DNA of 8,389 nucleotides, taken from a bacterium (lineage in GTDB: Bacteria; ARS69). The notes under the pieces were generated by a model, which did no database searches, was not told the origin of the DNA, and saw nothing but the letters and a program-made list of their open reading frames with translations. The stretch covers positions 1 through 8,389 of the forward strand of contig JALGZR010000150.1 in assembly GCA_025774805.1 (NCBI GenBank), in the 5' to 3' direction. This document shows positions 3,151 through 8,389 of the stretch, piece by piece; position 1 is the stretch's first letter, and every line of letters begins with the position of its first letter. A program made the translations under genes and the position numbers.

Positions 3151-3179
3151 ATACTAGGGAGGAGCGCACCTGATGTCAA
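3151..3179 (-). promoter_or_regulatory. Sigma-70-type promoter for rho
   Basis: On the minus strand a perfect -35 box TTGACA (3179-3174) is followed, after exactly 17 bases, by a -10 box TAGTAT (3156-3151; four of six consensus positions). It sits at the start of the rho leader. The -35 box overlaps the TGA stop codon of the IlvC-like gene (3178-3176). This is the best housekeeping promoter match I found in the window, and it suggests that rho can be transcribed independently of the two genes upstream. Confidence 0.7.
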
Positions 3180-4218
3180 CCACTCCCCAGTTCCTCCCGG
3201 ACCCGTCGGCCGGCGTTTTCCAGTGGGTGGGCGGCCTCCTCCGCCCGGAGCTTCGCCAGTCGCGGCGCGCCCGCCTCGTGTTCCCGGAGCCACTCCGCCG
3301 CGAACCGTCCGCTCACGATCTCCTCGAGAACGGCGGCCATCCGGGCGCGGGCGGAATCCCCCAGAACGCGGGTCCCCCGCGTGAGGCCACCGTACTGGGC
3401 GGTCCCGCTGATTCTCTCGCGCATCCCGGCCGGCCCCGCCTCGTACACGAGGTCCAGGATCTGCTTGAGCTCCTGGACGCAGGAGTAGTAGGCGATCTCC
3501 TCGGAGACGCCCCCCTCCACGAGCGTATCCCACGCCGCGCGCACCAGCTCGACGACGCCCCCAGGGTCGTGGCGAGGAGGCCGGCTCGGGTCATCCGCAG
3601 AAGCGAGGCGTACGCGAGGGCAAGGGCCTCCGCCCGGCCGGTGGCGTCCCGGACGAGGGCGAGCAGTCCGGCCAGGCCTCGACCGGAGAGGAATCGCTCC
3701 CGCAGGAGCGCCCCGGGGCCGAGCGGCCCGACGAGCGCGACATCGAGATCGGGCCGCACGGGAAGAGCGTCGGGGCCGGTCGATGCGGCGCCGGGGACGT
3801 CCGCGCCGGCAGCGGCGTCAGGCGACGCGGGGCCGTCGGAAGGGCCCGCAGCGGAGGCTCCCTCCGACCGCATCCGGGCGGCGCGGAGCGCGAATCCGTG
3901 GGCGAAGACCAGCAACGCCCCCTGGGCCGCGTGGGGACGCACGAGGCTCTCGAGGACCCCGATCTGGACCTCGTCGGGAACGAGCACGGCGATCACGCGG
4001 CAGACACCCAGATCGTGGGGCGGGGAGAGCGAGAATCCGTCGGCCGCCGCCCGCGTCGCGGAGGGGCCGTCGCGGCGGGAGAAGACGCGCACGTCGCATC
4101 CCGCATCCCTCAGACAGAGCGCCTGCGCGGCTCCCTGATTGCCGTAGCCGACGACGCCGACCGTGGACCCTTGCAGGAGGTCCGGGTCGGCGTCGCCGTC
4201 GCGGAGGATGCGGGTCAT
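3176..4218 (-). pseudogene. Ketol-acid reductoisomerase (IlvC)-like gene, frameshifted and lacking the active-site segment
   Basis: Intact IlvC reduces and isomerises acetohydroxyacids with NADPH and Mg2+ in valine and isoleucine synthesis. Frame one (4218 to about 3562) gives 219 residues: a Rossmann motif VGVVGYGNQGAAQAL (20-34), LVPDEVQ (79-85), FAHGF (105-109), LVGPLGPG (162-169) and TRAGLLATTL (210-219). A -1 shift at a run of five Gs (plus-strand C5, 3558-3562) leads to GGVVELVRAAWDTLVEGG and a well-kept C-terminal domain (CVQELKQILDLVYEAG, ISGTAQYGG) ending at 3176. The usual segment between TTF and CGG, which carries DLFGEQ with two Mg2+ ligands, is absent. PKGPG has become PLGPG (catalytic Lys lost), the FECLHE motif has become YSCVQE (first Glu lost), and about 38 Ala/Pro/Gly-rich residues are inserted at about 115-152. 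The ATG is eight bases after the TPR gene. It is probably inactive as a reductoisomerase. A pseudoenzyme with a sequencing indel is the main alternative. Confidence 0.8.
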
Positions 4219-4226
4219 TCGATGTG

Positions 4227-5348
4227 CTACCCGTCGCCCTCTTCGGCCCGGAGCATCTCGTCGTACTTCATGAGATACCTGGAGGCCTTCTCCTTCTCCC
4301 CGATCTGATTGCAGGCGGTGGCCAGAATCCGGTAGTAGTCCTTCTCGTCGGGGTTGACGTCCACGAGCCGCTCGACCGTCTCGACACACCCCTCGAACAT
4401 CTTCCCGTAGAGCTGCGAGAGGCCGAGGTTGTACATCGCGTCGACCCAGACCGCGTCATCGGGATCGTCGAGGGTCTGGGCGACGAGAGCGAACACCTCC
4501 GCGGCCGGCTCGTACTCGTCTCGCTCGTAGAAGCCGATACCGACATTGTAGAGCGAGAGCACGTTGTTCGCGGAGATCTCGATCGCCTTCATGTAGTGCT
4601 CGATCCCCTGAGCTTGATCCCCCCGCGCGAAGGCGAGGTCGCCGAGCTCGAGCAGCGCCGCGTCGTTCTCCGGGTTGAACTCGAGCACCTTGTTCAGAGT
4701 GGTCTCGAGCTCCTGCGTGGTCTCCACGATGTCCATCGAGTCCGCGACCTCCGCGAACGCGAGCAGCGACTCCCGGCGCTTGCTGAGCGCCACCGAAAGG
4801 TAGTCGTAACCGATCGCCTGGTCGGGGGCGATCTCGATCGCTTTCCGGAACGAGGCGATGGCGCCCTCGGGATCGTCGAGCTGGTTTTGCGTGTAGCCGA
4901 GGTTCAGGAATCCCTCCGGCTTCCCGGGATTGATCTTCGTCGCGATGAGGAACTCCTCTTTCGCCCCCGGGTTGTCCCCGGCGGTGAGCAGCTCCACCCC
5001 CGCGTTGAAGTGCGACACGAAGTAGTTCTGCACGCGTTCGCTCGCCCACTTCGCGTGTTTGCGGATCTTCTTGTCCTTGTGCTTCCTTCGCTCCATGAGC
5101 CAGTAGAACGACTCGTAGGCGTCTTCCCAGCGTCCCATTTCCGCCAGACACCAGGCACCGTAGTAACGGGCCTCGGGGTTCTCGGGCTCTTCCAGGATGC
5201 AGCGCGCGCAGTAGTCGAGGCCTTGTTCGAAGTCCTCTTGGGTCTTCGTGTAGTACTTGCAGTTTGCCAGTGCGCTCTGGGCGTGCACGGCGGGCACTGC
5301 AAGAAGCAGGAGGGCCAAGGCCCAAACGCCGATCATGGGACGGGTCAT
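4227..5348 (-). CDS. Exported tetratricopeptide-repeat (TPR) protein
   Basis: This 373-residue protein has a clear signal peptide: MTR, a hydrophobic stretch at 6-18, and a likely signal peptidase I site after VPAVHA (23/24). It should therefore act in the periplasm or at the cell surface. The mature part is mostly TPR helices. Clear units are at about 53-86 (ENPEARYYGAWCLAEMGRWEDA), 111-144, 145-178 (PEGFLNLGYTQNQLDDPEGA), 228-261 (NDAALLELGDLAFARGDQAQ), 262-295, 302-335 and 336-368. A charged Lys/Arg-rich insert (88-106) separates the first unit from the rest. Four cysteines (30, 47, 50, 67) cluster before residue 70, including CARC, and could form disulfides. TPR arrays bind proteins, but the partner is unknown. 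GGAGGAG stands just before the ATG. It is probably the first gene of a two-gene unit with the IlvC-like gene, from the promoter at 5442-5471. Confidence 0.88.
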   Translation of the reverse strand: MTRPMIGVWALALLLLAVPAVHAQSALANCKYYTKTQEDFEQGLDYCARCILEEPENPEARYYGAWCLAEMGRWEDAYESFYWLMERRKHKDKKIRKHAKWASERVQNYFVSHFNAGVELLTAGDNPGAKEEFLIATKINPGKPEGFLNLGYTQNQLDDPEGAIASFRKAIEIAPDQAIGYDYLSVALSKRRESLLAFAEVADSMDIVETTQELETTLNKVLEFNPENDAALLELGDLAFARGDQAQGIEHYMKAIEISANNVLSLYNVGIGFYERDEYEPAAEVFALVAQTLDDPDDAVWVDAMYNLGLSQLYGKMFEGCVETVERLVDVNPDEKDYYRILATACNQIGEKEKASRYLMKYDEMLRAEEGDG

Positions 5349-5868: not shown

Positions 5869-8389
5869 CTACCGCAGGACCACCATTTTCCGGATGGCCG
5901 CGAACTCTCCCGCCTGGAGGCGATAGAAGTAGATCCCGGCCGTGACACGTGCTCCGGTGTGGTCCCGTCCATCCCAAGTGAGGACGTATCGTCCCGCGGC
6001 TCGGTTGGCATCTTCCAGGACGCGAACCCGGCGCCCGGTGACGTCGTAGATGTCGAGCAGGACGGACACGGCGGACGGAAGATCGAATCGGATCTCCGTA
6101 GCGCTCCGGGTCGGGTTCGGGCGACTCGCGTGGAGCGCGAATGCCGAGGGAAGGTCGATGCTTCCGGTCCGGAGCTCGGGTTGCATTTGGTCGGTGTTCA
6201 TCCTCGCCTCGTCACCCGTCGCGCCGCTCCGGTCCTCCGTCATCGCCATCCTGCCGATGGGCCGGATGTGACAATCGTCCACCAGGAACCGACCCCGATC
6301 GAACGCCTCGTTGATCGTGGAGACGGCGTGATTCACGTCCGACAGCAGGCCTTCGGGTTCGTTTCCGGCCAGCGCACGGTTCGCCAATGCGAGCAGGTCG
6401 TCGACGGTCCGCTCCGAGCCCAGGGCGTCCAAGACGGCCTGCGGGATCGTGAACGTCCGCATGTCGTCGGGATCGCCGCTCGGCACGTCGTCCTCGGTAC
6501 CGAGGATTCCGTCGGGTCCGGGCAGCGCCTTGACCGTGACGAACTCATCGCAGAGGCGGAACTCCAGGAGCGCCGGTGTGATCCTCACGTTCAGGGAGAG
6601 CGTCACCGTCTGGCCCAGAAGGATATTCTCCCATTTTCCGGAGCTGTCGACCGGGATCGGCGGGTCCGTCTGGCAGCCTTCGGCGGGGAGGTTCTGCTCT
6701 CCGAAGCCGTCGGGCAGCGTCGTGGGTGTCACTCCCGCCGGCAGGCGCTGAATGATGCACTCCGCCGATTCGAGAGCAATCGTGAGCGATCGTCCCGAAT
6801 CGCCCACGACGAGCGGTGTGTCGAGAACGCTCTGGATCAGTCGGAGCGTACGGACTCCGTTGAATTTCCCGCCCGGGTTTCCGAAGAAGCCCTGTGTGAA
6901 GCTGACGAGCACACTGCCTTCCTTGGCACAGTACAGCGCGATCTCGCAGGAGTTCTCGCAGCCGTTCGCGTCGGTCATGACGAGCGTGATGTAGATCATG
7001 CCCAAAGTGGGACCGACGCTGTAGGTGATCGTGTCGGTTCCCTGTCCGCCCTGGAGCTGACCGTTTCCGCTCACGGTCCAGAAGTACTCGACCATCCCGG
7101 GAGGTCCACTCATTTCATTGTCGGTCGAGCCGCAGAAGGGCAGCACGTCGGGATAGGCGAGCTCGCAATCGGGCTCGGGGTGGATCACCAGCACGAGGTC
7201 GTCGGTCGCGGCCGGGCAGGGACCCGGCGGGTCGTCGGAGGTCAACGTCAGCGTCACGCCGCCCGCCTCGATGTCCGAGGCGGACGGCGTATACGTCGTC
7301 GCCAGGGCGTTCGGATCGCCGAACGTTCCCGTCCCGGAGGTGGTCCAGGAGGCGCCGGAGGCGCTTCCACCGATCGAGCCGGCGAGATGGACCACGGGAA
7401 CGGGCCGCGCGCAGTGCTCCTGGTCCTCACCCGCGTCCACGACCGCCGCGGGAGCGATCGTGATGACGACGGCATCGCCGACCGCGTCACAGGGCCCGTC
7501 CGGATCGTCGGTCGTCAGTGTGAGCGTGACCGATCCGTCCGCGATGTCCTGCTCGGACGCCACGTAGCTGGTGACCGGATCGGAGGCATCCCCGAACGTG
7601 CCCGTTCCGGAGGTGGTCCAGGTGACCCCGGACGCTCCTCCACCGAACGATCCGCTCAGCGCGACGACCGGCGGAGGAACCGCGCAAACCGTCTGGTCGG
7701 GACCGGCGTTCACCTCGGCCGCCGGACGAATGGTGACGGCCATCGAGTCGCTGTCGGCTTGACAGGAGCCGTCCGGGTCGTTCGTGGTCAGGGTGAGCGT
7801 CACCCCTCCCGCGGCGATATCGGCGGCGGACGGCGTGTACGTCGTGACCGGGTTCGTCGGGTCGCCGAACACGCCCGAGCCGTCCGTCGTCCACGTGGCG
7901 CTCGTCGCGCCGCCGCCGAAGGAGCCGGCCAGGTCGATCACCGGCTCCGGGAACGAGCAAACCGTCTGGTCCGTACCGGCGCCGACGATGACGGCCGGCG
8001 CGATGGTGAGAACCAGATCGTCCGTCGCCGCTTCGCAGGGACCGGACGGATCGTCCGTGGTCAGGGTGAGAGTCACGGTTCCCGCGACGATGTCGTCCAC
8101 GGACGGCGTATAGGTCGTCGCCGGGTCGAGCGGGTTTGCGAACCAGCCCGTTCCGCTCGTGGTCCAGGTTGCCCCGTTCGCGCCCCCGCCGAACGAGCCG
8201 GCGAGTTGCAGGATCGGAGGCGGATCCGAGCAGACGGCCTGATCGCTTCCCGCGTCCACCGTGGCCGCGGGATGGATCGTGAGGACCATCCCGTCGCTCG
8301 CCTCCGGACAGGGGCCGGCGGGATCATCCGTCGTCAGCGTGAGCGCGACCGTGCCCGCGTCGATGTCGGCGGCGGACGGCGTGTACGTC
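5869..8389 (-). CDS. Large secreted PKD-like repeat protein with C-terminal sorting domain, 5' end outside window
   Basis: About 839 residues are visible and the frame is open to the window edge, so the N-terminus is missing. Parts in order are a partial and then four full 91-residue PKD/Ig-like repeats (8388-7168), a different PKD-like domain (about 7165-6925; YFWTVSGNGQ, MTDANGCENSC), and a non-repeat domain (about 6922-6270) starting SVLVSFTQGFFGNPGGKFNG, with a D-rich turn GPDGILGTEDDV near its end. A polar linker follows. The last 97 residues (6162-5872) resemble FlgD-Ig or type A (type IX secretion) sorting domains: RPNPTRSATEIRFDLP, IYDVTGRRVRVL, GIYFYRLQAGEF, RKMVVLR. Known proteins of this layout are exported across the outer membrane and act at the cell surface in adhesion or matrix building. 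No catalytic motif is visible, so a structural or adhesive role is an inference. A strong hairpin follows the stop codon. Confidence 0.9.
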   Translation of the reverse strand, partial: TYTPSAADIDAGTVALTLTTDDPAGPCPEASDGMVLTIHPAATVDAGSDQAVCSDPPPILQLAGSFGGGANGATWTTSGTGWFANPLDPATTYTPSVDDIVAGTVTLTLTTDDPSGPCEAATDDLVLTIAPAVIVGAGTDQTVCSFPEPVIDLAGSFGGGATSATWTTDGSGVFGDPTNPVTTYTPSAADIAAGGVTLTLTTNDPDGSCQADSDSMAVTIRPAAEVNAGPDQTVCAVPPPVVALSGSFGGGASGVTWTTSGTGTFGDASDPVTSYVASEQDIADGSVTLTLTTDDPDGPCDAVGDAVVITIAPAAVVDAGEDQEHCARPVPVVHLAGSIGGSASGASWTTSGTGTFGDPNALATTYTPSASDIEAGGVTLTLTSDDPPGPCPAATDDLVLVIHPEPDCELAYPDVLPFCGSTDNEMSGPPGMVEYFWTVSGNGQLQGGQGTDTITYSVGPTLGMIYITLVMTDANGCENSCEIALYCAKEGSVLVSFTQGFFGNPGGKFNGVRTLRLIQSVLDTPLVVGDSGRSLTIALESAECIIQRLPAGVTPTTLPDGFGEQNLPAEGCQTDPPIPVDSSGKWENILLGQTVTLSLNVRITPALLEFRLCDEFVTVKALPGPDGILGTEDDVPSGDPDDMRTFTIPQAVLDALGSERTVDDLLALANRALAGNEPEGLLSDVNHAVSTINEAFDRGRFLVDDCHIRPIGRMAMTEDRSGATGDEARMNTDQMQPELRTGSIDLPSAFALHASRPNPTRSATEIRFDLPSAVSVLLDIYDVTGRRVRVLEDANRAAGRYVLTWDGRDHTGARVTAGIYFYRLQAGEFAAIRKMVVLR
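7168..8388 (-). repeat. Tandem 273-base repeats coding 91-residue PKD-like domains
   Basis: Four complete units lie at 8259-7987, 7986-7714, 7713-7441 and 7440-7168, all exactly 91 codons. A partial unit at 8388-8260 runs off the window. Each unit reads VxAGxDQxxC, then xLxGSxGGxAxxxxWTT, a short glycine turn and F, then xDI..G.VTLTLT..DP.G.C.A..D. Two cysteines per unit, about positions 10 and 76, recur in all units and probably form a disulfide inside each domain. The units are close at protein level but carry many synonymous and conservative changes, so they are not fresh duplications. Confidence 0.9.

Follow-up and report, generated by a model that had tools for sequence, protein, structure and literature searches.

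The class I ketol-acid reductoisomerases (KARI, or IlvC; EC 1.1.1.86) carry two domains (PF07991 and PF01450), an NADPH-binding KARI_N half and a knotted C-terminal KARI_C half, and are captured by the NCBIfam model TIGR00465. In the spinach enzyme the catalytic residues are D315, E319 and E496 (PMC11264209). In our alignment each of the 30 canonical KARIs, all taken from other phyla, retains the histidine as well as K130, D190, E194, E226, E230 and S251. D190, E194 and E230 in this numbering correspond to spinach D315, E319 and E496, while K130 is the active-site lysine and E226 a metal ligand. Some KARI mutants reportedly lose the isomerase activity and keep the reductase activity.

IlvC has also been described as a ketopantoate reductase. 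The Buchnera ilvC gene complements an E. coli panE ilvC strain, and its product is a proven ketopantoate reductase (PMC4306246). In B. subtilis IlvC is one of three ketopantoate reductases (PMC11487621), and for C. glutamicum it is described as the sole one (Merkamm et al. 2003, as cited in PMC4353338; see also PMC9817396). Neither Buchnera nor C. glutamicum has a dedicated PanE in use. However, in all three organisms the enzyme still performs the valine/isoleucine step. PanE/ApbA (PF08546), which catalyses the ketopantoate reaction, is a different family by sequence, although according to PMC4353338 both belong to the 6-phosphogluconate dehydrogenase-like superfamily.

Here we describe a KARI-like gene in a window of 8,389 nucleotides, the whole stretch of DNA analysed, from an uncultured bacterium (genome G000). 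It was compared with four other genomes of the phylum (G001 to G004), which makes a sample of five, all in one family; those relatives that have names come from metagenome assemblies and carry the label Gemmatimonadota or simply 'bacterium'. That IlvC can act as a ketopantoate reductase is already known. What appears to be new is an isomerase-depleted form in genomes that lack the Ilv pathway.

The broken gene and its neighbours

The KARI-like gene lies on the minus strand and its frame break is real, with one frame running from 4218 to 3562 and the next from 3562 to 3179. The first frame (3562 to 4218, 219 aa) begins with an ATG at 4218, ends in TRAGLLATTL and constitutes the KARI_N half (Pfam, E=7e-36), with 51-57% identity to the orthologues of G001, G002 and G004. 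The second frame (3176 to 3562, 128 aa) extends from GGVVEL to a TGA stop at 3178-3176. It matches KARI_C profile positions 18-141 (Pfam, E=1e-38) and is about 66% identical to the four orthologues. Both halves score above the family cut-offs, and the gene is a KARI by descent. The KARI_C match begins at profile position 18, and the 17 positions before it, which hold the DLF.EQ helix, are missing. If the first frame were continued past the junction it would acquire an unrelated out-of-frame tail (3313 to 3557, minus strand) with its stop, a TGA, at 3315-3313.

The junction is located in a run of five G (3558 to 3562, minus strand), as the original prediction had it. Relative to the G002 orthologue the join leaves out 16 aa in the query and overlaps by one base in the subject (-1 nt), and thus 49 nt (16 codons plus one base) are missing. 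The earlier estimate of about 16 absent residues therefore stands, but the motif within them is DLFAEQ in this lineage and not the DLFGEQ that had been supposed. The segment reads EEVVSDLFAEQ in three relatives and EEVISDLFAEQ in G003. The check proposed at that time was a search for orthologues, and the 16 residues are present in one open frame in 4/4 of the other phylum genomes examined. A single loss of about 49 bases, the first of two explanations offered before, accounts for both the missing segment and the altered frame; a loss of 48 nt plus one G produces the identical sequence and the two are indistinguishable. Since the missing 49 nt include the metal-ligand helix (D190/E194) and shift the frame, the gene as assembled cannot specify a working enzyme. 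This is the only KARI gene of the window genome: when KARI_C and a full-length orthologue were used to search it, neither a second intact copy nor a displaced segment was recovered.

A further feature, missing from the earlier account, is an in-frame insertion of about 36 codons rich in Ala, Pro and Gly (3772 to 3879, minus strand), which is absent from the orthologues in the alignment. Such insertions are frequent in G000 genes relative to G002, for example 38 aa in TilS (L078).

The upstream neighbour encodes a TPR protein (4227 to 5348) and the downstream neighbour the transcription terminator Rho (1573 to 2919), both on the minus strand and identified with Pfam. The order TPR, KARI-like, rho is common to G000, G001, G002 and G004. 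In G003 the contig starts within this gene, and the upstream neighbour is out of view. In the phylum the KARI-like gene thus sits between TPR and rho and is unlinked to pan genes. Elsewhere in the window (5869-8388) a secreted protein, long and repetitive, runs off the contig end; it has PKD-like repeats and, at its C-terminus, a sorting domain of the FlgD-like/Por type.

Active site and pathway context of the lineage

Intact members of the lineage resemble class I IlvC in their two domains, their length, the Rossmann motif and the AHGF histidine, and they keep D190, E194, E230 and S251. They differ at two positions. K130 is replaced by Leu (PKGPG to PLGPG) and E226 by Ser (YFEC to YYSC) in every phylum sequence that covers the sites, and both replacements are also seen when the sequences are aligned to solved KARIs. 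In the window the Leu codon is at 3721 to 3723 and the Ser codon at 3482 to 3484 (minus strand, by alignment); here the D190/E194 helix is deleted as well. By its residues the lineage thus lacks the full KARI active site (K130, D190, E194, E226, E230, S251). An intact orthologue nevertheless scores above the NCBIfam ilvC cut-offs of TIGR00465 (298 vs 226 bits) and NF004017, and will therefore be annotated as a ketol-acid reductoisomerase. An AlphaFold model of the intact orthologue, built with 3 sequences in the alignment, had a mean pLDDT of 62 with much of the C-terminal domain below 50, and was left out of the reasoning.

The gene content of the five genomes does not provide the usual setting of IlvC, a place between acetolactate synthase and IlvD. 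IlvD was found in 0/5 of the phylum genomes and acetolactate synthase above the cut-off also in 0/5, G004 having two weaker ThDP enzymes. The product of a classical KARI would accordingly have no outlet. The ordinary IlvC role that had been implied for the window gene does not fit a lineage that is devoid of K130, E226 and IlvD. In contrast to the usual ketopantoate reductase, which is absent, PanB is present in 5/5, although in G001 the end of a contig cuts it short, and PanC in 5/5. The PanE/ApbA_C domain (PF08546) was found in 0/5. Proteins with DUF2520, which may sit near panBC, were considered as the missing reductase; they too occur in 0/5 of the genomes, and the ORF lists around panBC gave no other recognisable reductase. 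These absences are read from metagenome-assembled genomes of 67-100% completeness, and the pattern holds in G002, which is 100% complete.

Independent support for a link to pantothenate synthesis comes from G037, a distant, unrelated genome with neither IlvD nor ApbA_C. In it panB lies only a few bases downstream of a KARI homologue, with coaX and coaBC next, all on one strand (L039, 21-3740). The coaX gene encodes the type III pantothenate kinase. The pan/coa linkage is seen in G037 and not in the phylum of the window. Both K130 and E226 are retained in the G037 homologue, and the proposed role in pantothenate synthesis therefore does not depend on losing them. Genome G013, also without IlvD and ApbA_C, has PanB and a KARI homologue with the same K to L change. 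In the KARI tree the phylum sequences form one clade (100/98), which G013 joins without firm support (85/86). A single clade of all seven IlvD-less homologues tested was not rejected (p-AU 0.58), a weak result given the long branches. Divergent KARI homologues are also found in genomes that do bear IlvD (L036, 3278-4402, in G028; L038, 3353-4354, in G050), and in that of G050 the AHGF histidine is replaced by Ser and K130 by Arg.

Age and origin of the break

The window copy shows little sign of age. In the KARI-like tree the G000 branch is the shortest (0.18 vs 0.33-0.67 for the others). The similarity of G000 to its relatives is 61-68% in the first half and 66-69% in the second, and of the columns that are invariant among the relatives it keeps 83/86 and 52/56, respectively. 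The two halves are also alike in G+C by codon position. There was thus no indication of relaxed or accelerated evolution in either half of this copy, and a long-standing pseudogene is rejected on the short branch and the invariant columns kept (142/149). The lineage was under normal constraint up to the deletion, or still is, in agreement with what had been concluded from the conserved flanks. It follows that the break is either very recent or an error of assembly.

We consider it somewhat probable that about 49 nt were lost in read joining or consensus making and that the gene is intact in the living population. The gene is whole in all four relatives, conservation is normal on either side of the break, and panB and panC are intact in the same genome. 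Other genes of this assembly are similarly broken. A glycosyltransferase gene (L059, near 19720 on contig C1) has 46 nt missing relative to G002, whose 48 nt (16 codons) immediately ahead of FKGIRR are here reduced to 2 nt, and its frame is changed. A PpiD/SurA-like peptidyl-prolyl isomerase gene (L054, about 2752-2776 on contig C31) has a one-base frame shift and is in a single frame in G002 and G004. The likeness of the 46- and 49-nt losses, each of which takes conserved residues from an otherwise sound gene, makes us lean towards a local assembly error. However, G000 does not have significantly more breaks than G002 (about 3/153 gene pairs in G000 vs 0/144 clear cases in G002; Fisher p 0.25), in counts drawn from 561 kb of G000 and 1.23 Mb of G002. 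The sample is partly selected, as it includes the KARI gene under study and L054, which was chosen for its pan genes. A G002 junction flagged in L107, with extra rather than missing sequence, was left out of the count. An apparent break between TilS and HPRT in L078 proved to be two separate genes with no frame shift. A full-length gene in the relatives had been proposed as sufficient to make this an assembly error, but by itself it establishes only the ancestral state.

The deletion may instead be real and represent a very recent loss of function, a reading that we hold to be tenable if somewhat doubtful. The strain would then need pantoate, pantothenate or another product from outside. The 49-nt absence is clean within one contig, and the insertion at 3772-3879 indicates that the gene tolerates length change in this strain. 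Against a real deletion are the lack of any further decay in the gene, the intact pathway partners panB and panC, and the comparable breaks in other genes of the assembly. The original prediction had also allowed for programmed -1 slippage on the G run, yielding a protein shorter by 16 residues. A -1 shift at CTG GGG GCG would indeed restore TTL-GGVVEL. The heptamer, however, is a poor slippery site by its sequence, folding of the RNA 3' of the G run gives no more structure than in shuffled versions (z -0.32), the relatives use one frame throughout with no such site, and the product would still be devoid of the metal ligands D190 and E194. Neither the folding result nor the single frame of the relatives supports a programmed frameshift gene, and we give this explanation almost no credence. 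The lesion by itself is ordinary. Reading it as an assembly error concerns the lesion only and is compatible with a reductase-only function of the family.

A putative reductase-only KARI

The KARI-like gene looks like the only apparent candidate for the missing step of vitamin B5 (pantothenate) synthesis in these genomes. The gene content, the known side activity of IlvC, the G037 cluster and the G013 homologue together suggest that this KARI lineage may have lost the isomerase (alkyl-migration) half of its activity and may serve as an NADPH-dependent ketopantoate reductase in pantothenate/CoA synthesis, a proposal that we regard as evenly balanced. Both substrate and activity are derived from gene content. 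The enzyme would stand in for PanE where PanB and PanC are present and PanE, IlvD and acetolactate synthase above the cut-off are absent. The isomerase chemistry would have been dropped with the change of K130 and E226, and the reductase step retained; 2-ketoisovalerate may be supplied by imported valine. Support comes from the replacement of both residues throughout the phylum, set against their retention in every canonical KARI aligned. Like the IlvC enzymes of Buchnera, C. glutamicum and B. subtilis, the proposed enzyme is an IlvC homologue in a genome with PanB and PanC, and like those of Buchnera and C. glutamicum it would act where no dedicated PanE is in use. Unlike all three it occurs where the valine/isoleucine pathway is absent and the isomerase-site residues are changed. 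The reaction proposed is that of PanE/ApbA.

The window itself supplies evidence against a ketopantoate reductase, since panB and panC are intact in this genome and the sole candidate reductase is broken. That combination would be expected from an assembly error, from a lesion of very recent date, or if the function has been wrongly assigned. Other, unrecognised reductases could perform the ketopantoate step. The intact family might be a KARI homologue with another reductase substrate, or a non-catalytic protein tied to its TPR and rho neighbours, which we think possible but rather doubtful. The TPR, KARI, rho order is kept wherever both neighbours are visible, and two active-site residues are replaced. 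KARI homologues have also been recruited elsewhere, as in BurG of malleicyprol synthesis. Yet this other role would leave the PanB-PanC pathway with no recognised reductase in 5/5 genomes, and it sits poorly with intact members that keep the Rossmann motif, D190, E194, E230 and S251.

The lesion itself carries little weight beyond a warning on small deletions in this assembly, and it is outweighed in importance by the KARI-like family, a plausible and testable new form of a known enzyme. We give an even chance to the broader proposal that in genomes unable to make branched-chain amino acids an IlvC clade without K130 and E226 may be a dedicated ketopantoate reductase, a separate evolutionary solution beside PanE. 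If the proposal of a reductase-only enzyme is true, curated IlvC models such as TIGR00465 label a pantothenate enzyme as an enzyme of the valine pathway, and two pathways would be mispredicted in these uncultured bacteria. The family would also represent a natural two-step enzyme that keeps only its reductase step, which would help to tell apart what the KARI active site contributes to isomerisation and to reduction.
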